Positions 15,343-33,062 of a stretch of 38,354 bases of DNA are shown piece by piece; positions within the stretch are counted from its first letter, which is position 1, and every line of letters begins with the position of its first letter. The stretch spans positions 1-38,354 of the forward strand of contig JANXAM010000024.1 in assembly GCA_025062155.1 (NCBI GenBank), read 5' to 3'. Under the pieces are notes generated by a model that was not told the origin of the DNA, did no database searches, and was given only the letters and a program-made list of their open reading frames with translations. The position numbers and the translations under genes were made by a program. Source of the DNA: Gloeomargarita sp. SKYB120 (lineage in GTDB: Bacteria > Cyanobacteriota > Cyanobacteriia > Gloeomargaritales > Gloeomargaritaceae).

Positions 15343-15387
15343 TAGTATGTAGAAATGTAAAGAATTGCGAGAGATAGGGGACCGGCG

Positions 15388-15546
15388 ATGGTCACAACCA
15401 CCACAGCGAGCATCCGGTTTGTCAAGGAAGGCAAGGAGGTCATTGTGGCCAATGGCGCGAATTTGCGGCAACAGGCGTTGGCTAACGGTATTGATCTGTA
15501 CAACTGGCGGGGCAAGTTGATGAATTGCGGGGGCGTGGGCCAGTGC
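15388..15546 (+). repeat. Direct repeat, left copy (first 159 bases of ferredoxin gene)
   Basis: This stretch matches 18756-18914 at 157 of 159 positions; the two differences are at the end of the ACAGC(G/A)AGC and TGGCG(G/A)GGC words. The match begins at the ATG (with weaker similarity upstream) and stops sharply after CAGTGC. Together the copies bracket a 3.2-kb interval. Confidence 0.97.
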
Positions 15547-15567
15547 TGCAGACGGTTGAACCCATGA
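15388..15567 (+). pseudogene. Truncated 2Fe-2S ferredoxin, 5' half only
   Basis: The frame starts exactly like the intact ferredoxin at 18756 and encodes the same first 53 residues up to CGGVGQC. It then runs into unrelated sequence, adding CRRLNP before TGA at 15565-15567, for 59 residues. It keeps the first two cluster cysteines, but the third and fourth, and the C-terminal half of the fold, are missing, so it cannot be a working ferredoxin. A plausible ribosome binding site (AGGGGA) remains, so a short product may still be made. The junction fuses it, out of frame, to the cheA-like remnant. Confidence 0.9.
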
Positions 15568-16993
15568 CCTCAGCCGAATTACACGTTGACATTGCCTGCA
15601 CCATTTTTGAGACCGATATTGCGCCTAAAATTGCCGAAATCCGTGCGACGCTGGCCCAACCCGATTCCCCCCTTTTGCTGGGAGAGTTACGAGCGCAATT
15701 CGATGTATTGGCCGGCTTGGGGGAAATACTGAACTTTCCAGCGCTGGTGCGAATTAGCCGCTTAGCACTGGCCGCCTTGACTTACCATCCCGACCAAGCT
15801 GTGGCGATTGGTGCACTAGCCCTTGGCGATTTGGAAAGGATGGAACAAAATCCTGAACCCGATCCTGAACTCGTTGCCCTGAGTGAACTGCCGTTGGATG
15901 GGTGGGACGGCCCAGAGTTATCGTCATTTGGGGGAGATGAGGCCTCTCCTGGGGAAGCGGCAATCACCTCGCCCTTATCTGTGTGGGAAGAAATCGGCAG
16001 TTTCGTCGAAGCGGCGTCACCTCCATATCCGGAATAACGATTACCGAACTGCTGGTTTTTCAGTTAGAGCAGCGATTATTGGCACTGGCGGTGGACAGTT
16101 TGGCGGGCATTGTCAGTGTTGCCCAGGACGCCTAGGTAACTGTACAAGGACGGCGGTTATACCGCTGGCAGGGACGGTTGGTGCCGGTGATTGCCCCCTC
16201 AGTTTTGGAATATCGCTACCCCGTGCGGTGGCCAACAGGAATGACTAGAGGCGAGAACTTACCGGCAGGGCGAGGACAACCCCTTCTATAGCTAAGCCAT
16301 CTATGCTTGTCATGTCTTAGAGTCGCAGGACGTAGCCCCGTCCTTGGTTTTCCTGTCATCTCTCTGACAACCTAAAGCAGCTCAGCTATATTAATCAATG
16401 TGGGGGAGGAAATTTACGGGCTAGAAATTGACCAGATTTTACTAGAGCAGGATTTGGTGATTAAGCTATTGAGCGGCCTGTTTTCGGCACCGGCGTATGT
16501 GTATGGTTGTACGATTCTGGGGGATGGGCGTTTAGTGCCGGTGATAGATGCCAGTGCTTTAGTGCAACGCTGGTTACGCACACCAGATATAGGGGTTGTG
16601 GTTCCCAAGGCGCCCATTCGTACAGTCCGTCAAACCGAAATTTTGGTTGTGGATGATTCCTTGACCATGCGGGGAATGCTGAGCAAAACGTTAACCAAAC
16701 ATGGCTACCAAGTCTATACAGCCGCAGACGGGCGAGAAGCGCTAGAAATCCTGGCGCAACATCCAAGCATCAAGGCGGTTGTTTGTGATGTGGAAATGCC
16801 GCGCATGAATGGATTTGAGTTTTTGAGTATTTGCCGCCAAGAAGGCTACTACCCCAACCTGCCAGTCATCATGCTGACGTCGCGGGCAGGAGAGAAACAC
16901 CAGCAAGTGGCTCGAAATTTAGGCTGTAATGCTTATTTAACCAAGCCCTATTTGGAACCGGAATTACTAGCAACCCTGCGGCAGTTTATTTGA
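15544..16993 (+). pseudogene. Decayed CheA-type hybrid kinase (Hpt-like, CheW-like and receiver pieces)
   Basis: Three pieces of one chemotaxis/phototaxis-type kinase survive. From about 15547 to 16030, one frame encodes an Hpt-like block (IFETDIAPKIAEIRATLA, LAGLGEILNFPALVRIS, LALAALTYHP). A second frame from about 16013 encodes the CheW-like domain (ITITELLVFQLEQRLLALAV), with a TAG at 16133-16135, and is split at 16289 by a small transposable element. It resumes as VGEEIYGLEIDQILLEQD and ends in a receiver domain at about 16630-16993 (ILVVDDSLTMRGMLSKTL, acceptor Asp in VVCDVEMPRMNGFEF, LTSRAG, TKPY). The dimerisation and ATP-binding domains are absent, so an internal deletion accompanies the frameshift. 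The N-terminus was lost at the ferredoxin junction. A GTG at 16400 could still start a CheW-receiver fragment of 197 residues. Confidence 0.85.
16289..16388. mobile_element. 100-bp MITE with IS630-like ends and TA duplication
   Basis: The element begins TAGCTAAGC and ends GCTCAGCTA, an imperfect inverted repeat, and is flanked by TA at 16287-16288 and 16389-16390. Both ends also carry TTGTCA at inward positions 19-24. The same TAGCT(A/G)A-11-TTG(A/T)CA pattern is seen at the insertion-sequence end at 101-108. It has no coding capacity. Deleting it with one TA joins CTA to TTA ATC AAT GTG GGG and restores the CheW frame (QPLLLINVGEEIYG), so its boundaries are precise. It is probably moved in trans by the related transposase. 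Confidence 0.85.
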
Positions 16994-17110: not shown

Positions 17111-17138
17111 AAAAAAAGACCCGCTGTGTTTCAGCAGG
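17111..17138 (-). terminator. Rho-independent terminator of the secreted-protein gene
   Basis: On the minus strand CCTGCTG (17138-17132), loop AAACA, and CAGCGGG (17126-17120) form a seven-base-pair stem with one G-U pair, followed after TC by seven T residues (17117-17111). It lies 45 bases beyond the stop at 17183. Confidence 0.75.
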
Positions 17139-17182
17139 CCTGGTCTAAGGTGGGTTTGCCGATTCTGGATAATCCTGCAGGA

Positions 17183-18571
17183 CTAAGGACCCATAGGACG
17201 TGGCCCGGGGTTTACACGCGCTCCTCCGAATGGGTCAATGCGAGACGGATCAGGGCCAGACGCGCGCCCTGGAGGTTCAAAGCCGGGATTCCAAACCGGA
17301 ATGCGCTCGTCAAGTTGAATCCGAGGCCCAGTACCTTGGGTGTCATGACCATCGCGGGGAGGGAGAACCTGAGCACCGGGGCGGTCTTGCTCCATGACTT
17401 GTTCAATAGGTGTTTTAGGACGCAGGTGCCCAAACACTCCTGGTGCTATCTCCCAAGGCGCCGGAGCGTTTGCTCCCCCGCAGGGCAAATCAGGGTCGCA
17501 CATATGATGACGGCGTTGCCTGGAAGGAGACCCGATGTCCAACTCACCATTTCTCCCATTTCGGTCATAGCGGACGATGAGCATGCCCTCTATTATGCCC
17601 CCCGCTGGCCTGTTGGAGTGGTACTCCTTGATTAGCACCGGTGGGTCGGTTGAATTACGGTTCTCCTTATAATAAACACGCACATCATAGCCGCTTCTGC
17701 TGGCCGTGGATTCCGCACGGTAGTAACGGCCGTCGGGCGTGTACACATGGACGATATAGGTTGGGGAATTGGGATAGTGCTCTGTCTCAACCCTGTAGCC
17801 ACCTTCGACTGCATAGCTCTTGCCCCCTTGGCCGTTAGGCCCTAAATCCGTATACTTGACGGGCCGGTTATCACCCTGGTTTCCATCAGCGACCAAACTG
17901 CGCTTATTGATCTGGCTAAGATCAGGAGCAAGCAGGCCGTTTCTCCCTTGGTTACGGTGCTGGGCACCTGCATCATTACGAGGAGCATTACCAGTCCTGA
18001 GCCGCTGCCGATGCGACTCCAACCGCTCCATGAAGCCATAGTCCCCCCGGTCGCCTGGATAACGGGGACGCTTCTGCTGGTGGGAGGCTGATTCTGGAAC
18101 CTGGCGTTGCCGATTCCGGTTGCGCGGGTTGAGTTCTTCGACGTTGACTTGCGACCCTTCGGGCAAGAGGTTAGCAGAGTCTTTCATCCCTTGGGCCGCT
18201 TCTTGAATGGACTGTGCTTCAGCAGCGTGCCTTGCTCCTTCCGGCAAAGGTGGCAGTAGCCGGGGGTCAATTTGCAAGAGCCGTTCCTGATTGGGAAGAG
18301 TTCCAGTGATCCCCCGTTGCCCATCCCGGTCGCGGTTAAATAACTGCTGCTGCAGATGACTAGGCACTGTTGGCATCGTATTGGTCGTATTTCCTGAGTC
18401 TTTGGGTATCGGCGGGGTAACTGGCGGCGGTGGGAGATATTGGTTGTAGGGATTCCCGAGGTTGGTTCCTGATGTCGGTTTGGCGTGGGTGATCTGGGCC
18501 AGTGCCCGTAGTGGCATACCCCCTACTAAAACGGCGCTCAGGAAGAGTATTGGTAGCACTTTCGACTTCAT
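17183..18571 (-). CDS. Secreted, basic, low-complexity protein of unknown function
   Basis: The 462-residue product starts with a clear Sec signal peptide (KVLPILFLSAVLVGGMPLRA; likely cleavage after ALA near residue 25). A proline-rich linker follows (YLPPPPVTPPIPK). Residues of roughly 60-215 are rich in Arg, Asn, Gln and Gly (NPRNRNRQRQ). From about 225 to 335 comes a more ordered, beta-rich block with many aromatics (YRVETEHYPNSPTYIVHVYT, then DGRYYRAESTAS, YDVRVYYKENRN). The tail is again Pro/Gly/Arg-rich with two cysteines in MCDPDLPC. I recognise no family. It lies alone inside the disturbed island, with its own terminator, and its ATG faces the intact ferredoxin 184 bases away. It could be a surface or matrix protein; that is a guess from composition. 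Confidence 0.8.
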   Translation of the reverse strand: MKSKVLPILFLSAVLVGGMPLRALAQITHAKPTSGTNLGNPYNQYLPPPPVTPPIPKDSGNTTNTMPTVPSHLQQQLFNRDRDGQRGITGTLPNQERLLQIDPRLLPPLPEGARHAAEAQSIQEAAQGMKDSANLLPEGSQVNVEELNPRNRNRQRQVPESASHQQKRPRYPGDRGDYGFMERLESHRQRLRTGNAPRNDAGAQHRNQGRNGLLAPDLSQINKRSLVADGNQGDNRPVKYTDLGPNGQGGKSYAVEGGYRVETEHYPNSPTYIVHVYTPDGRYYRAESTASRSGYDVRVYYKENRNSTDPPVLIKEYHSNRPAGGIIEGMLIVRYDRNGRNGELDIGSPSRQRRHHMCDPDLPCGGANAPAPWEIAPGVFGHLRPKTPIEQVMEQDRPGAQVLPPRDGHDTQGTGPRIQLDERIPVWNPGFEPPGRASGPDPSRIDPFGGARVNPGPRPMGP

Positions 18572-18755
18572 AAGAGTGAACCTCCAAACCCCTTTCTACT
18601 GCCCATAATCGCTGCCATCCCTGCCACTCGGGTACTAACCTTGTCACCACTGACCCCTGATCACGATCACATTCCAACCCTGACCCTAGCCTTGACATTG
18701 AAACAATATGTAGGATTGTTAAGGAATTTTTAGGGAAGAGAAGAGGAGTCAGGCA

Positions 18756-18914
18756 ATGGTCACAACCACCACAGCAAGCATCCGGTTTGTCAAGGAAGGC
18801 AAGGAGGTCATTGTGGCCAATGGCGCGAATTTGCGGCAACAGGCGTTGGCTAACGGTATTGATCTGTACAACTGGCGAGGCAAGTTGATGAATTGCGGGG
18901 GCGTGGGCCAGTGC
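18756..18914 (+). repeat. Direct repeat, right copy (first 159 bases of intact ferredoxin gene)
   Basis: Partner of 15388-15546, same orientation, 157 of 159 identical. Upstream of the ATG the two copies are only loosely alike, sharing a TATGTAG core and a roughly alignable 30-base block. Confidence 0.97.
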
Positions 18915-19064
18915 GCGACCTGTGTAGTGGAAATTGTCGAAGGCATGGAATATCTTTCCCCGCCCACTGATTTTGAGCAGCGCCGGTTGCGGAATAAACC
19001 CAATTGCCGCTTGGCATGTCAAACATTGGTCTACGGGCCCGTGACGGTGAAAACAAAACCCTGA
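18756..19064 (+). CDS. 2Fe-2S ferredoxin (adrenodoxin-like cysteine spacing)
   Basis: The 102-residue protein carries the cluster ligands as [10 protein letters not shown] (Cys-x5-Cys-x2-Cys) and a fourth in CRLACQT near residue 87. This spacing differs from the plant-type photosynthetic ferredoxin (Cys-x4-Cys-x2-Cys) and resembles the bacterial or vertebrate-type 2Fe-2S group. It is a soluble one-electron carrier; the partner is unknown. An AGGAG sequence lies seven bases before the ATG. A TTGACA at about 18702 may be part of its promoter, but the -10 element is weak. The Mce/MlaD gene follows 47 bases downstream. Its 5' half is duplicated at 15388. The call as ferredoxin is firm; the gene symbol is not. 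Confidence 0.93.
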
Positions 19065-19111
19065 ACCCGGGGTATACTCAGGCTAAGGGCAATCGCATCT
19101 TTCGAAGTTCC

Positions 19112-20062
19112 ATGACTTCTGCCACCAAGCCCTCGCGTCGCCAGCAGGAAGGATTCTTGGGATTGTTTATTGTGATGACAGTGCTACTGCTGGCTGGGGT
19201 ATGGGTCTGGGTGGAAGACGTGGCCTTTAACGCCAATCGCTACCGGTTTCAGGTGGCCTTTCGCCATGCGGCTGGTCTTGGGGTAGGGTCCACAGTACGG
19301 CTGCGAGGTGTGGAAGTGGGCCGTGTGGTCGCGGTGGAACCTGGCGTCAATCAGGTGCTGGTGACGGTTGAAATCCATCATCAGGGCATCTTCATTCCCA
19401 AAAAGAGTCACTTTCGCGCGCAGACGGGGGGACTGGTCGGCCAGCCGTCCTTGGAGATTAGTCCCCAGGCGGACCTGGATGTGGCCACTGTGAACGCGGG
19501 TCCTCGTAGCCCTGACTGTGATGCGAACTTGCTTGTTTGCCAGGGGGCGCAGGTCACCGGTCAAACCAGCCCTACCTTTGATGACCTGGTCCGGTCGGCG
19601 GCCAACCTGGTCAACCAACTCGATAACTCGGAACTGGTGGACAACATGGCGAAATTGACCCAGAGTTTGGGGGATTTGAACCAGGACATCCGCCGGTTGA
19701 CGGTGGAGGCACGCCAGACGTTGCAACAGGTGCAGGCGGCGGCCAAGCAGGTCGAGCAAGCGGGGACGCGAATGGCAACTGCCGCAGATACCACAACCGC
19801 CATCTTGCGGGAGAATCGGGCGGCCCTGCGCACGAGCCTGGTGCGGCTGAATCGTACATTGGAGACAGCTCAATCGGCATTTACGGCCTTTCGCAAAGTG
19901 GCTACTGACGTGGACCAGATCACCGGCGACCCCCGGATTCGCGAGGACATCAAGAATTTAATCCGGGGCTTAGGCAAGCTGTTGAAGCTTACGGAAGACA
20001 TGCGCCAGCAACTGCAGGCCTTGGCCCAGGAAAATCCCCAGGGAACCAACCCGTTACAATAG
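19112..20062 (+). CDS. MlaD/Mce-family lipid transport protein
   Basis: The protein has a short basic N-terminus (SATKPSRRQQEG), one membrane helix (LGLFIVMTVLLLAGVWVWV), and an MCE domain (YRFQVAFRHAAGLGVGSTVR, LRGVEVGRVVAVE, GLVGQPSLEIS). The second half is long helical sequence with heptad-like repeats (QTLQQVQAAAKQVEQAGTRM). MCE proteins form rings that pass lipids between membranes together with an MlaE/MlaF-type ABC transporter, which is not in this window. The start is taken at ATG 19112 (316 residues). The frame is open from 19004, but that extension overlaps the ferredoxin gene and reads as shadow. Confidence 0.9.
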   Translation: MTSATKPSRRQQEGFLGLFIVMTVLLLAGVWVWVEDVAFNANRYRFQVAFRHAAGLGVGSTVRLRGVEVGRVVAVEPGVNQVLVTVEIHHQGIFIPKKSHFRAQTGGLVGQPSLEISPQADLDVATVNAGPRSPDCDANLLVCQGAQVTGQTSPTFDDLVRSAANLVNQLDNSELVDNMAKLTQSLGDLNQDIRRLTVEARQTLQQVQAAAKQVEQAGTRMATAADTTTAILRENRAALRTSLVRLNRTLETAQSAFTAFRKVATDVDQITGDPRIREDIKNLIRGLGKLLKLTEDMRQQLQALAQENPQGTNPLQ

Positions 20063-20095
20063 AGACAAAAACCTAGGCGCTGCACGAGACGGGTC

Positions 20096-20992
20096 ATGGT
20101 GAAACGGAAGTGGATAAACGTCATTTTGGCGGTAGTTCTGGCGGCCCTTTTGACGGTGGGCTATGTATCGCCAGCCTGGGCGGCCAAAACCGGTGGACGC
20201 ATTAGCGGTGGTTCGTTTCGGATGCCAACAAGCACCTACCGGCTGCCGAGTCGTTCGGTGAATCCCAGCTATGGTTACAACCGGGGTTATTACGGCGGCG
20301 GCATTGGGTTTCCAGTCTTTTCGCCCTTCCCATTCTTTTTTGTGGGCGGCGGTGGGTTGCTCTCAGTGGTGCTGCTGTTGGGGGTGGCCGGTTTGATTGC
20401 CCAGACGGTGCAGCGGTTCCAAGAGCAGCGGCAAGAAGAAGCGTTACTGAACCCCACGGTGACGGTGGCCCAGGTGCAGTTGGCCTTGCTAGCGCAAGCC
20501 CGTTCGCTCCAGCAGGAGTTGAACCGTTTGGCCCAGACAGCACGTCCCGATACCCCTCAAGGCCGCGTGCAATTGATCCAAGAACTGACGTTGGCCCTGT
20601 TACGGCACCCAGAGTACTGGAGCTACGGCTATGCCAGTACGGAAAAGGCGCCTCTGAATCAAGCGGAGTCGGAATTTAACCGGATTGCGTTGCGGGTGCG
20701 GGCGCAGGTGCAAAAGGAAACGCTGGTCAACGGCGTTTTCACACCGGTGACGGTCGATGCGGAGCAGCCGGGGGAATATATCCTCGTAACGGTGCTAGTG
20801 GCAACCACAAGGCCGGTGAAACTGCCGGTGATTCACACACTGGCGGATGTGAAAAACGCTTTGACCACCTTGGGCAGCATTGGTGCAGATGACCTGCTGG
20901 CGCTGGAGATTCTCTGGGCACCCCAGGCGGAAGGGGATACGTTGACCCGTGAAGAGCTGGTTACGGCGAATCCGTTGCTGCGCCCGCTGTAA
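20096..20992 (+). CDS. DUF1517 family membrane protein
   Basis: A 298-residue protein with an N-terminal signal or anchor (INVILAVVLAALLTVGYVSP, then AWAAKTGGR), a Gly/Ser/Tyr-rich segment (GGRISGGSFRMPTSTYRLPS; YNRGYYGGGIGF), a membrane helix (GGGLLSVVLLLGVAGLIAQT near residue 82-101), and a soluble domain ending ILWAPQAEGDTLTREEL. This is the standard DUF1517 layout, known from cyanobacteria and chloroplasts and without an assigned function. Its last 32 bases overlap the convergent eda gene. It lies 33 bases after the Mce/MlaD gene and may share its transcript. Confidence 0.9.
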   Translation: MVKRKWINVILAVVLAALLTVGYVSPAWAAKTGGRISGGSFRMPTSTYRLPSRSVNPSYGYNRGYYGGGIGFPVFSPFPFFFVGGGGLLSVVLLLGVAGLIAQTVQRFQEQRQEEALLNPTVTVAQVQLALLAQARSLQQELNRLAQTARPDTPQGRVQLIQELTLALLRHPEYWSYGYASTEKAPLNQAESEFNRIALRVRAQVQKETLVNGVFTPVTVDAEQPGEYILVTVLVATTRPVKLPVIHTLADVKNALTTLGSIGADDLLALEILWAPQAEGDTLTREELVTANPLLRPL

Positions 20993-21626
20993 GCCCGAGT
21001 CCCTTGAGCCATTGCCCCAGCTCCTGAGCCAGTCCCACCCAATCCCGCTGGGAGTACCAGGGTTCGGGAAACAGGTCTCGCCCTAACCCAACTGCGATGG
21101 CCCCTGCCTCCAGAAACGCCTGCGCATTGGCCCGAGTGACACCGCCGGTGGGAATGAGGGGGATGGGTCCCAAGGGTTGCCGCAGGTGTCGCAGGTAACT
21201 GGTGCCCCCGACGCTGGCGATGGGAAACACCTTGACCGCTGGCGCTCCTAGTTGATAGGCGTGCAGGATTTCAGTGGGGGTTAGAGCACCGGGCACTAAG
21301 GGAATTCCCACCGTGCGACTCCGTCCCAGCCACTCCCGTTGGGTGTGGGGGGTCAAGATAAAGTCCACTCCTAGGCTCAAGGCGGCCTCTAACTCGGCAT
21401 CGCGCCGGATGGTGCCAGTTCCCACCCAGCAGTCGGGATAGGCGATTTGCAGACGGGGAATGATTACTTCCACATCTGGACAATCCCAGGTGACCTCGAT
21501 AAAACGAAAACCCGCCTGGGCCAGCGTTGCTCCCATCTGGTAGGCCAGTTCCGGTTCGCCAGCCCGCACAATCCCGATCAGCCGGTGGCGCTGGAGATTT
21601 TTCAGCCAGGCGTCTATCCCGTCCAT
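20961..21626 (-). CDS. eda: KDPG/KHG aldolase
   Basis: The enzyme splits 2-keto-3-deoxy-6-phosphogluconate to pyruvate and glyceraldehyde 3-phosphate, the last step of the Entner-Doudoroff route, which operates in some cyanobacteria. It also cleaves 4-hydroxy-2-oxoglutarate. Features: LIGIVRAGEPE at the N-terminus, FIEVTWDCPDVE, WVGTGTIRRDAELEAAL, the Schiff-base Lys in APAVKVFPIASVGGTSYL, and the phosphate site PTGGVTRANAQAFLEAGA. ATG 21626 (221 residues) is chosen because GGGGAG lies five bases upstream; GTG 21632 is also possible. The 3' end overlaps DUF1517 by 32 bases. Confidence 0.93.
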   Translation of the reverse strand: MDGIDAWLKNLQRHRLIGIVRAGEPELAYQMGATLAQAGFRFIEVTWDCPDVEVIIPRLQIAYPDCWVGTGTIRRDAELEAALSLGVDFILTPHTQREWLGRSRTVGIPLVPGALTPTEILHAYQLGAPAVKVFPIASVGGTSYLRHLRQPLGPIPLIPTGGVTRANAQAFLEAGAIAVGLGRDLFPEPWYSQRDWVGLAQELGQWLKGLGLTAGAATDSP

Positions 21627-21663
21627 TGCCACTCCCCATTTTTACTTCTATTCTGAGCAACGT

Positions 21664-21692
21664 TTGACAAGGCTGGTCCCCTTTGGCATAAT
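21664..21692 (+). promoter_or_regulatory. Promoter of the str operon (rpsL)
   Basis: TTGACA at 21664-21669 is followed after exactly 17 bases by CATAAT at 21687-21692, a near-consensus sigma-70-type promoter 28 bases before the rpsL ATG. It fits the high expression needed for ribosomal proteins and elongation factors. Confidence 0.85.
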
Positions 21693-21719
21693 TGTTGATT
21701 GTTGCGAAAACGCCATTGC

Positions 21720-22145
21720 ATGCCCACAATTCAGCAGCTAGTCCGCTCGGAGCGGCAGAGTGTCAAGCGTAAAACTAAGTCGCCGGCGCTCAAGGGATGT
21801 CCTCAACGGCGCGGGGTTTGCACCAGGGTTTACACCACGACCCCTAAAAAACCCAATTCCGCCCTGCGAAAGGTGGCACGGGTACGGTTGACATCGGGCT
21901 TTGAGGTGACGGCCTACATTCCGGGCATCGGGCACAACTTGCAGGAGCACTCGGTGGTGCTGATCCGGGGCGGTCGAGTCAAGGATTTGCCGGGCGTGCG
22001 CTACCACATCATCCGGGGGACGTTGGATGCCGCTGGCGTGAAACATCCCGGTTCTCTGCCGCCGCGCAACCAAGGACGGTCCAAGTACGGGGTCAAGCGG
22101 CCCAAACCCGGTCAACCGGCGGCTCCGGCTGGCAAGAAGAAGTAG
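21720..22145 (+). CDS. rpsL: Ribosomal protein S12
   Basis: S12 is part of the decoding centre of the 30S subunit. The start is [20 protein letters not shown] at ATG 21720; the open frame from 21699 adds only leader sequence. Conserved elements include the [18 protein letters not shown] segment, [20 protein letters not shown] and [14 protein letters not shown]. Unusually, the normally fixed stretch GVKDRKQxRSKYG is replaced by [19 protein letters not shown], about six residues longer, and the tail (PAAPAGKKK) is extended, giving 141 residues against the usual 123-130. No strong ribosome binding site precedes the ATG. It heads the rpsL-rpsG-fusA-tuf-rpsJ operon. Confidence 0.97.
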
Positions 22146-22164
22146 TCCCATTCGGAGTTGCACA

Positions 22165-22635
22165 ATGCCGCGTCGTCGTCGTGTTAAACCCCGTGTCATC
22201 GAAGCCGACCCCAAGTACAACAGCCGGTTGGTGAACATGTTGGTCAGTCACGTGTTGCGGCGGGGGAAGAAGCATTTAGCCTACCGGCTGGTGTATCAAG
22301 CGCTGGATCTGGTGCAGGAACGCACAGGCGGCGACCCCCTGGAAACCCTGGAAAAGGCGGTGCGCAACGTGACGCCTCTAGTGGAGGTCAAAGCCCGGCG
22401 GGTTGGCGGGGCCACGTATCAAGTACCGGTGGAAGTGCGACCGGAGCGGGGAACGTCCCTGGCCTTACGCTGGTTGACCACCTATGCGCGGCAACGTAGC
22501 GGTAAAACCATGGCCATCAAGCTGGCCAACGAACTCATGGATGCGGCCAATGAAACCGGGGCGTCCATCAAAAAGCGGGAGGAAACCCACCGGATGGCCG
22601 AAGCCAACAAGGCCTTTGCCCATTACCGCTACTAG
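22165..22635 (+). CDS. rpsG: Ribosomal protein S7
   Basis: S7 binds the 3' major domain of 16S rRNA and starts head assembly of the 30S subunit. The 156-residue sequence ([78 protein letters not shown]) has normal length and shows no anomalies. It starts 19 bases after rpsL and belongs to the same transcript. Confidence 0.98.
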
Positions 22636-22707
22636 GGCACTGTCACATTTGCCCAAACAACGATAAAATTTGTAACGGACGATTTCCAGGTCATTCAGGA
22701 GGAAGCC

Positions 22708-29922: not shown

Positions 29923-32484
29923 ATGACGGCATCCCGTTATCAACCGGCGGACATTGAACCCCGCTGGCAACGGACCTGGCTGGAACAGGGACTGTATCGC
30001 ACGGACACCGACCCCAGCCGTCCCAAGTACTATGCCCTGTCCATGTTTCCCTATCCGTCGGGGAATTTGCACATGGGGCACGTGCGCAATTACACCATTA
30101 CGGATGTGATTGCCCGGGTGCGGCGGATGCAGGGCTACCGGGTGCTCCATCCCATGGGTTGGGACGCCTTTGGGCTGCCGGCGGAAAATGCGGCGATTGA
30201 CCGGGGGGTGCATCCGGCGGACTGGACGGAGCGTAACATCGCTAATATGCGCCGGCAACTGCAAGCCCTGGGGTTGAGCTACGACTGGGAGCGAGAACTG
30301 GCGACGTGCGACCCCCGCTATTACCGCTGGACCCAGTGGCTGTTTTTGCAGATGTGGCACCTGGGCCTGGCCTACCAGAAAGAGGCGCTGGTGAACTGGG
30401 ACCCGGTGGACCAGACGGTGCTGGCCAATGAGCAGGTGGACAGTGAGGGGCGTTCCTGGCGGTCGGGAGCCAAGGTGGAGCAGCGTTACCTGAAGCAGTG
30501 GTTTTTGCGCATCACCCATTACGCGGAGGAATTGCTCCAGGATTTGGACCAACTGCCGGGCTGGCCGGAGCGGGTGAAAACCATGCAGGCGAACTGGATC
30601 GGGCGGTCGGTGGGGGCGTACCTGGAATTTCCGGTGGTGGGTCGCCCGGCGAAAATCGGGGTGTTTACCACGCGCCCGGATACAGTGTGTGGGGTGTCCT
30701 ACGTGGTGCTGGCGCCGGAACATCCCCTGGTGGCGGAACTCACCACGCCGGAACAGCGCCCCAGGGTGGAGCAGTTTCTCCAGGAACTCCAGCAACTCTC
30801 GCCTGCGGAACGCACCGCCGAGGACCGGCCGAAACGGGGAGTGCCGATTGGCGCCATGGCATTGAACCCCTTCAACCAGCAGCAGGTGCCGGTGTGGATT
30901 GCCGATTACGTGCTGTACGAGTACGGGACAGGGGCGGTGATGGGCGTGCCGGCCCACGATGAGCGGGATTTTGCCTTTGCCCAGCAGTATGGGCTGCCGA
31001 TTACCCAGGTGATCCTGCCGCCGGGGGTGGACCAGCCCATGCCCCTGGAGAACGCCTACACCGGGCCGGGAACGCTGGTGAATTCCGGGGAGTTTGACGG
31101 TCTGGACAACGAGACGGCCAAGGAAACAATCACCCAGAAGGCCCAGGCGCAGGGGTGGGGCGAAGCGCGGGTGCAGTACCGGTTGCGGGACTGGCTTATC
31201 TCGCGCCAGCGGTACTGGGGGGTGCCGATTCCGGTGATTCACTGCCAGCACTGCGGGGTGGTGCCCGTGCCCGAACCGGACTTGCCCGTACTGTTGCCGA
31301 GGGATGTGCAGATTACCGGACGGGGATTATCACCGTTGGCGCAGCTAGAGGCATGGGTGAATGTCCCCTGTCCCACCTGCGGGCGACCGGCGCGACGGGA
31401 GACGGACACGATGGACACGTTTATTGACTCGTCCTGGTATTTCTTCCGGTTTGCCGACCCCCACAACGACCAGGCCATCTTTGACCCCCAGGTGATTCAG
31501 AACTGGTTGCCGGTGGACCAGTACGTGGGGGGCATTGAACACGCCATCTTGCACTTGCTCTACTCCCGGTTTGTGACCAAAGTGTTGCGGGACCGGGGAT
31601 TGATTGCCTTTGACGAGCCGTTTACCCGCCTGCTGACCCAGGGGATGGTGCAGGGCTTGACTTACAAGCATGTGCAGACCGGGCGGTATCTGCCCCCTGA
31701 CCAGGTGATTCAGGAAAACGGCGAGTACCGGGACAAGGAAACGGGAGCGCCCGTGGCGGTGGTTTATGAAAAGATGTCCAAGTCTAAATACAACGGGGTG
31801 GACCCGGAGCAGGTGCTCGCTCGCTACGGCGCGGATACGGCCCGGATGTTCATTTTGTTCAAAGCGCCGCCGGAAAAAGACCTAGAGTGGGACGAAGCCG
31901 ACGTCGAAGGGCAGTTTCGCTTCTTGCAACGGGTCTGGCGCTTGGTGCAGCAGTATCGGGAACAGCCCCCCGCTCCGGCGACCGACACCACACCGGCGGA
32001 ACGGGAATTGCGGCGCACGATTCACCAGACGATCCAGCAGGTGACAGCGGACACCACGGGCGAGTACCAGTTCAACACGGCGATTGCGGCGCTGATGAAG
32101 CTCACCAATGCCCTAACGGATTACCAGGGCACCAATTCTGGCGTTTTTGACGAGGGGATTCGCACGCTGTTGCTGCTCCTGGCGCCGTTTGCTCCCCATA
32201 TCACGGAGGAACTCTGGCACCAGTTAGGTCATCAGGATTCCATCCACCGGCAACCGTGGCCGCAGGTGGACCCCAGCGCGCTGGTGGTGGACGAAATTCC
32301 CCTGGTGATTCAGGTGATGGGGAAAACGCGGGGAACTATTCCAGCGCCAGCACAGGCGGACCAAGCGACCTTGGAACAATTGGCCCTGACGTCGGAGATT
32401 GGCCAGCGCTATCTCCAGGGCAAAACCATCAAAAAGGTGATTTATGTGCCGGGGAAACTGTTGAATTTCGTGATAGAGGGATGA
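29923..32484 (+). CDS. leuS: Leucyl-tRNA synthetase
   Basis: LeuRS charges tRNA-Leu. The 853-residue class I enzyme has the HIGH-type motif [18 protein letters not shown], the CP1 editing insertion from about residue 220 ([39 protein letters not shown] with the editing Asp), the leucine-specific/tRNA region with [14 protein letters not shown], and [15 protein letters not shown]. The C-terminal domain ends [19 protein letters not shown]. The start follows the PH gene without a gap and the stop overlaps the Uma2 start by four bases, so PH, leuS and Uma2 look translationally linked. Confidence 0.98.
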
Positions 32485-33062
32485 CAACTACCCAGAAGAA
32501 ACTCACCGTTGCCGAGTTTTTGGCTTTGCCGGAGGGGGACATCACCTACGAACTGGTGGAGGGCCAAGCAGTTCCCAAGGATAAACCCATGTCACCCAAA
32601 CGTTTTCACGCCCGTGTGCAGCCGGTGCTGTGGCGAATCATTGAGGACTGGTGTACGGCTCCGAATTGCCCCAAACCGGGTTCAGCCTACACGGAGTGGG
32701 CGGTCGTTTTGCAACACCAGGGGGAGACCTGGATTCCCGTTCCTGACATCATCTACATTTCTGAGCAGCGATTGCCCCTGGCTGACATGACCGATGAACC
32801 CTGTCTAGTGATTCCCGAACTCGTCGTCGAGGTGCTTTCCCCTAGCCAGACCTTTGGCGACATGGCCCAGAAGGCGGTGGATTATTTAGAAGCCGGCGTC
32901 AATCGCGTGTGGATTGTGGACCCCGCCGCCAAGACCATCACCGTCTTTTATCCCGACCGGCCCCCGCGTACGTTCCGCGACACGCAATCGCTGTCAGATG
33001 AGTTGCTCCCTGGCCTGACCGTGATTCCCCAGGAGGTCTTTGCCCAGGCGCGGATTCCCTAG
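32481..33062 (+). CDS. Uma2-family PD-(D/E)XK nuclease-like protein
   Basis: The 193-residue protein has the Uma2 pattern: [34 protein letters not shown] with the conserved [22 protein letters not shown] with the E and following K, and [20 protein letters not shown]. Uma2 (DUF820) genes are greatly expanded in cyanobacteria, with no settled function; a nuclease role is inferred from the fold. It overlaps leuS by ATGA and shares CTAG with the convergent ABC transporter stop. The longer open frame from 32256 lies inside leuS and is rejected. Confidence 0.92.

Follow-up and report, generated by a model that had tools for sequence, protein, structure and literature searches.

A predicted exported protein of Gloeomargarita whose central block is exchanged between close relatives while its ends are conserved

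What is a 462-residue protein of no recognisable family, encoded by an intact gene beside a kinase gene in decay, and does its preservation mean anything? The gene lies in a window that comprises the whole of contig JANXAM010000024.1 (38,354 nt) of Gloeomargarita sp. SKYB120, a genome of 2.48 Mb in 91 contigs. Gloeomargarita is close to the plastid ancestor, and to our knowledge no exchangeable-domain system of the kind considered below has been described in it. It is an early-branching genus (PMC9600594). The closest relative compared here is SKYG116 (G006), a genome of the same genus titled as a MAG; a second and more distant homologue comes from the Gloeomargarita genome G002. The gene and its parts, in window coordinates, are these:

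17183..18571 (-): whole gene, 462 aa, a probably exported orphan protein (open frame; homologues in SKYG116 and G002)
18497..18571 (-): putative signal peptide, residues 1-25, ending ALA, followed by Q (sequence read by eye, and alignment)
18308..18496 (-): proline-rich linker, residues 26-88, containing PPPPVTPPIP (sequence and composition)
17954..18307 (-): conserved N module, residues 89-206, R/N/Q-rich (identity to SKYG116 and composition)
17501..17953 (-): exchanged block, residues 207-357 (49 of 140 aligned residues and 193 of 420 nt identical to SKYG116)
17537..17878 (-): predicted beta core within the block, residues 232-345, with a DGR hairpin (alignment and models)
17186..17500 (-): conserved tail, residues 358-462, C358-C364 and then proline/glycine-rich (100 of 105 residues identical to SKYG116, 52 of 99 to G002)
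17117..17141 (-): terminator-like hairpin and T run, about 40 nt beyond the stop (hairpin scan against shuffled DNA)

The frame at 17183-18571 (-) is open across all 462 residues, and the ORF is real. Every element that a sequence-only reading of this DNA had named (a signal peptide, a polyproline linker, an R/N/Q-rich region, YY and YxV patterns, a cysteine-bearing tail) is present, with the cysteines spaced as C-x5-C. Judged by eye, the start MKSKVLPILFLSAVLVGGMPLRALA, followed by Q, resembles a signal peptide, with two lysines, a hydrophobic core and ALA before the Q; in the alignment the signal peptide of the G002 homologue ends AKA before its Q. Arg, Asn and Gln make up 31% of residues 89-206 by composition count, a composition from which we would expect the N module to be probably disordered; the sole part of it covered by a structure model, residues 194-206, has low pLDDT. 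The aromatic patterns within the block are YRV, YIV, RYY, YDV and VYY. Both the DGR hairpin of the core and the C358-C364 pair are kept in all three homologues, and the tail ends in GPRPMGP, with no hydrophobic stretch visible by eye. The claim that the gene has its own terminator holds in part: a hairpin with a T run does follow the stop, but the scan found one such site against a shuffle mean of 2.2, so that by count these sites are no rarer in shuffled DNA and only the hairpin's position supports a terminator role.

The same reading placed the gene in an island and took the contrast with the decayed kinase as a sign of selection. The neighbourhood contains the following:

15376..15546 (+): truncated second copy of the ferredoxin gene, start only, fused to the CheA remains (171 nt, 96% identical to 18744-18914)
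15537..16993 (+): hybrid CheA remains, 5' part missing (comparison with the 1348-aa SKYG116 copy)
16286..16391 (+): dispersed repeat of about 106 nt inserted in the CheA remains (genome matches)
18756..19064 (+): intact 2Fe-2S ferredoxin gene, divergent from the secreted-protein gene (domain match and ORF)

The kinase has indeed decayed, by truncation, deletion and insertion of the dispersed repeat. Its first ~131 codons are lost and replaced by the ferredoxin-start copy, which stands 3368 nt from the real one, and ~2.3 kb is deleted at 16034/16035; the duplicated ferredoxin start joined to the CheA remains marks a rearrangement. The intact hybrid CheA of SKYG116 (1348 aa) has Hpt, dimerisation, ATPase, CheW and receiver parts, and since the surviving pieces in the window are 97-98% identical to it, the decay must be recent, which makes the contrast between intact and decayed gene weak evidence of selection when taken alone. 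A foreign-gene island was rejected: the order hybrid CheA, secreted-protein gene, ferredoxin is also that of SKYG116, spread there over two contigs (CheA convergent with the gene on one, the gene divergent from ferredoxin on the other), and what the gene adjoins is a resident CheA recently decayed in this genome. In G002 the CheA-ferredoxin interval is occupied instead by a PMT-type (PMT_2) glycosyltransferase gene (L024:10167-11420), and the homologue lies on a different contig, next to genes that look by eye like TPI, cupin and CtpA; the gene's place is therefore not fixed.

The 106-nt repeat is palindromic, folding at -35 kcal/mol between TATAGCT and AGCTATA ends, with a possible 3-nt duplication at its insertion. 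At least 43 matches occur in the window genome, at least 40 in SKYG116, at least 2 in G001 and at least 1 in G005; none was found in G002 or G004, nor among the 40 of 85 candidates scored in G003. Its features are those of a MITE-like family.

That the protein is unrecognised was borne out by every collection searched. Pfam and NCBIfam (the latter searched with the window protein alone) offered no family for it even at E 10; matches below the Pfam cut-off were fn3 for the SKYG116 protein (E 0.15) and DUF6911 (E 0.11) and Tudor (E 0.21) for the window block alone, and the G002 protein had no Pfam match. PADLOC gave no family above threshold, the sequences of solved structures in the PDB no match, and PHROGs weak matches only (best E 0.082). 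Nothing was found on this protein in the literature searched, which is no proof of absence. By profile search, homologues are present in 3 of 7 Gloeomargarita genomes (3 of 8 in the family), namely the window's own, SKYG116 and G002, and a one-protein search of 59 genomes was positive in the same three; no other genus searched yielded a homologue. The four genus genomes without a match include one that is only 83% complete. In the phylum sample the whole-protein profile found the window's own genome alone among 386 (at most four candidates scored in each, among the matches listed), while viral contigs, plasmids and phages held no relatives, and an exact-peptide-pattern scan of genome contigs, which detects close relatives only, returned SKYG116 as its sole match.

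Searching with a profile of the block brought up, apart from the block itself, five weak matches (E 0.001-0.08, over short stretches), which we treated as noise: the longest forward frames at four of the five loci are two long DG-type-hairpin proteins, one helicase/primase-like protein and one 105-aa frame. A silent cassette store was likewise rejected, a second block copy being absent from the own genome and from the family genomes (E <= 10 in both).

The G002 homologue is full-length, 424 aa in an open frame, and shares 39% identity with the window protein in the multiple alignment (33% by BLASTP). That so distant a homologue is also open indicates that the intactness of the gene, as first claimed from the window alone, is more than chance.

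The most telling feature of the gene is one that a single sequence gave no way to see, and it thus escaped the sequence-only reading. Between the window and SKYG116 the ends of the protein are 85-98% identical, while residues 207-357 are 35% identical. Counted by segment, identical residues number 40 of 47 (89-135), 66 of 71 (136-206), 49 of 140 (207-357) and 100 of 105 (358-462), with DNA identities of 91%, 95%, 46% and 96%, respectively; residues 1-133 differ from the SKYG116 contig C189 by 4 nt (98% identical). Blastn aligns 17183-17485 (inside a 98.3% match) and 17951-18311 (91.6%) and finds no alignment over 17486-17950. The edges of the block are sharp, within ~20 nt, and fall just outside the predicted beta core. 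The two blocks are nevertheless homologous (37% over 100 aa, E 5e-14), with a dN of 0.74 and a dS saturated beyond estimation, against a dS of ~0.1 in the ends. Mutation in place cannot have produced such a saturated middle between such ends, and the block must therefore derive from another lineage or from another old allele. The alignments establish a swap of the central block between two close relatives, and allele replacement by recombination can explain its divergence. Identity to G002 is likewise lowest in the block (28%, as opposed to 38-53% elsewhere), and by BLAST the G002 block is not recognisably homologous to either close block (best E 0.021 and 1.3).

How unusual such a pattern is was gauged by comparing 838 kb of the window genome with 372 kb of SKYG116, ORF by ORF, down to a length of 120 aa. 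The 252 pairs were reduced to 207 without overlap by a longer one, of which 205 were scored and 162 retained at >=60% identity; the 43 pairs dropped are likely paralogues, some with lower minima. Among the 162, none falls below the secreted-protein gene in 100-residue identity (0.31; next 0.46; median 0.88), and the same holds among the 32 ORFs crudely predicted to be exported (next 0.57), though with the gene chosen before the control its rank is descriptive. Under a stricter rule (both fixed flanks >= 0.8, minimum <= 0.5) no ORF passes, the secreted-protein gene failing because its fixed right flank still takes in part of the block (0.58). When the drop is measured from the lower flank, it comes second (0.27), behind a Uma2 ORF (0.31).

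The ends themselves give dN/dS values of 0.57 (residues 89-206), 0.31 (136-206, a subset of these) and 0.34 (358-462), which are imprecise, coming from 22, 10 and 14 nt differences. Between these close strains the ratio thus stays below one, yet it is high for a genome with a median of 0.065 and a 90th percentile of 0.184 (130 usable of the 162 pairs), and the ends look to be under purifying selection that is loose by the standards of this genome. Together with the intact distant homologue, these ratios make a better case for selection than the contrast with CheA did.

That the beta-rich block might be a separate unit was a sound suggestion: it has been exchanged as one piece, and its predicted structure is a compact beta fold (confidence low to middling). 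AlphaFold2, run with two sequences, predicts seven antiparallel strands and a helix for the window block (mean pLDDT 49.1; ~65-77 in core blocks) and six antiparallel strands and a helix for the SKYG116 protein trimmed to the domain (mean pLDDT 65.6, pTM 0.62), so modelled that the fold seems to have been kept while the block's sequence was renewed. No described domain matched the block with confidence, either in Pfam or by Foldseek against PDB and viral models at E <= 0.001. Structural re-comparison (VIA) gave best Z scores of 6.9 for one block model and 7.1 for the other, below the value of 8 under which a score does not mean more than a common arrangement, and the models compared are of low to middling confidence. 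The scores go down from 7.1 and include CapZ (3aa1_A, Z 7.1, 93 aligned, rmsd 4.3, 5% sequence identity), DUF3836 (4r8o_A, Z 6.9, 82 aligned, rmsd 3.4, 7%) and OspA (7jwg_C, Z 6.3, 66 aligned, rmsd 4.0, 17%), with no family standing clear. The likeness to these meander beta proteins, a structural lead only, lies in the antiparallel beta arrangement and may be no more than that common arrangement. Lack of a structural match does not show that the fold is new.

Constant ends around an exchangeable part often mark contact with a changing partner (phage, rival or kin, for instance), and a swapped middle between near-identical ends may mark a recognition surface pressed to change. A MYXO-CTERM sorting tail includes a hydrophobic segment; the window protein has no NCBIfam match to MYXO-CTERM, and its tail lacks a hydrophobic stretch by eye. 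A MYXO-CTERM tail belongs to TraA of myxobacteria, an example of such contact; TraA is described as a polymorphic receptor for self-recognition, in which the variable domain determines what is recognised (PMC6372800). The likeness lies in a surface protein with one highly divergent domain and a more conserved remainder, allele recombination being proposed for TraA. Peculiar to TraA are Cys-rich repeats, the MYXO-CTERM tail, a partner, TraB, and a variable domain that is N-terminal and a remote relative of PA14 (PMC6372800). The Gloeomargarita protein, in contrast, has no Pfam domain (and hence no PA14 match, though TraA's own domain is only a distant PA14 homologue), its variable part is central and its tail is without a hydrophobic anchor. 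By analogy it may work like proteins of the TraA kind; we do not class it as TraA. What the polymorphic surface or secreted proteins have in common, conserved ends around a domain diverged far above background, is found here in two close alleles and one distant homologue.

We tentatively favour, with a probability of roughly 0.42, an exported display protein of some Gloeomargarita, associated with envelope or matrix, in which conserved ends carry an exchangeable recognition domain. The signal peptide, predicted by eye, would route the protein through the Sec pathway; the probably disordered N module and the C-x5-C/proline tail would tie it to a partner that stays the same, located in the matrix or on the cell surface; and the ends would thereby hold out a central beta domain to a variable external target, for instance a glycan or enzyme, a phage or an adjacent cell. 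Recombination within the near-identical flanks would pass the whole domain between strains in a single piece, as the sharp edges and the homologous but saturated block suggest, and selection for rare or matching variants would keep divergent alleles. We infer this function from the pattern of variation, and with two close alleles and one distant homologue, maintained diversity and one chance import look the same. A more specific version, and a rather unlikely one, is a new variable-recognition family in early-branching cyanobacteria, a constant exported scaffold whose exchangeable beta domain sets kin or phage specificity and is renewed by recombination. If more alleles appear, the causes of allelic diversity in a bacterial surface protein could be tested directly in natural Gloeomargarita populations.

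Nearly as likely as the display reading is a neutral import, in which an exported protein under weak constraint, structural and perhaps part of a sheath or matrix, acquired its middle from a diverged lineage through one recombination event, the block playing no role in recognition. It owes that standing to the hybrid alleles widespread in hot-spring Synechococcus and to the mosaic flank of the gene itself. Within-gene hybrids made by recombination are common there (PMC12755884) and need not imply recognition. The likeness is one of within-gene mosaics in a cyanobacterium; those mosaics, however, are described as blocks of linked SNPs in alignable DNA (PMC12755884), whereas the Gloeomargarita piece no longer aligns as DNA. 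The 19-kb flank compared with SKYG116 is mosaic as well (63 windows of 300 nt, median identity 95%, lowest 65%). The high dN/dS of the ends relative to the genome median fits weak constraint and counts against display, and the lack of a match in four of the seven genus genomes (allowing for the incomplete one) makes the gene probably dispensable. What speaks against a merely neutral event is that the block's 46% DNA identity goes beyond the exchange seen in the flank, whose 15 lowest windows are at 73-90% except one at 65%, and that the breakpoints sit just outside the beta core.

Assembly and toxicity offer two further explanations, neither of them probable. The swap could be an artefact of strain-mixed metagenomes, which we think very unlikely: the SKYG116 gene is broken at contig ends, and its two pieces, without exact overlap, show 13 differences across 45 shared codons, but the block is not touched by the break, which lies within residues 88-133, the two blocks keep the reading frame, are mutually homologous and are rightly placed, neither genome has a second copy apart from the overlapping pieces, and a strain chimera would still require two existing alleles. 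The two contigs have similar coverage (252.6 and 267.9 in their titles), and the imperfect overlap would fit two haplotypes, that is, ongoing polymorphism, with mis-assembly as the alternative. A predicted exported protein with an exchangeable domain might also act as a toxin, or in the manner of a bacteriocin, once secreted, with the middle domain deciding what it targets or does. We consider this improbable, as PADLOC has no match and the exchanged part is central rather than C-terminal. The gene, moreover, is flanked by the ferredoxin gene, which diverges from it, and by the kinase remnant, which converges on it. Among ORFs of at least 100 aa, the next one on its strand (16461-16766) runs antisense to this remnant, so that ORFs of this size offered no recognisable immunity gene, and the G002 gene sits among TPI-, cupin- and CtpA-like genes. 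Of these readings we continue to prefer the display protein.

Two other stretches of the window also depart from SKYG116. The Uma2-type ORF at 32256-33062 has a low-identity middle (100-residue minimum 0.59, flanks 0.90 and 1.00), and in the 19-kb comparison identity across the 63 windows of 300 nt reaches its minimum at 32573 (0.646). The second stretch, 19073-22672, follows the ferredoxin gene and holds MlaD-like, DUF1517 and other genes. Of the 12 consecutive 300-nt windows there, 11 belong to the 15 with the lowest identity (0.727-0.893, against a median of 0.953), a profile that identifies this stretch as a longer, putatively recombined tract.
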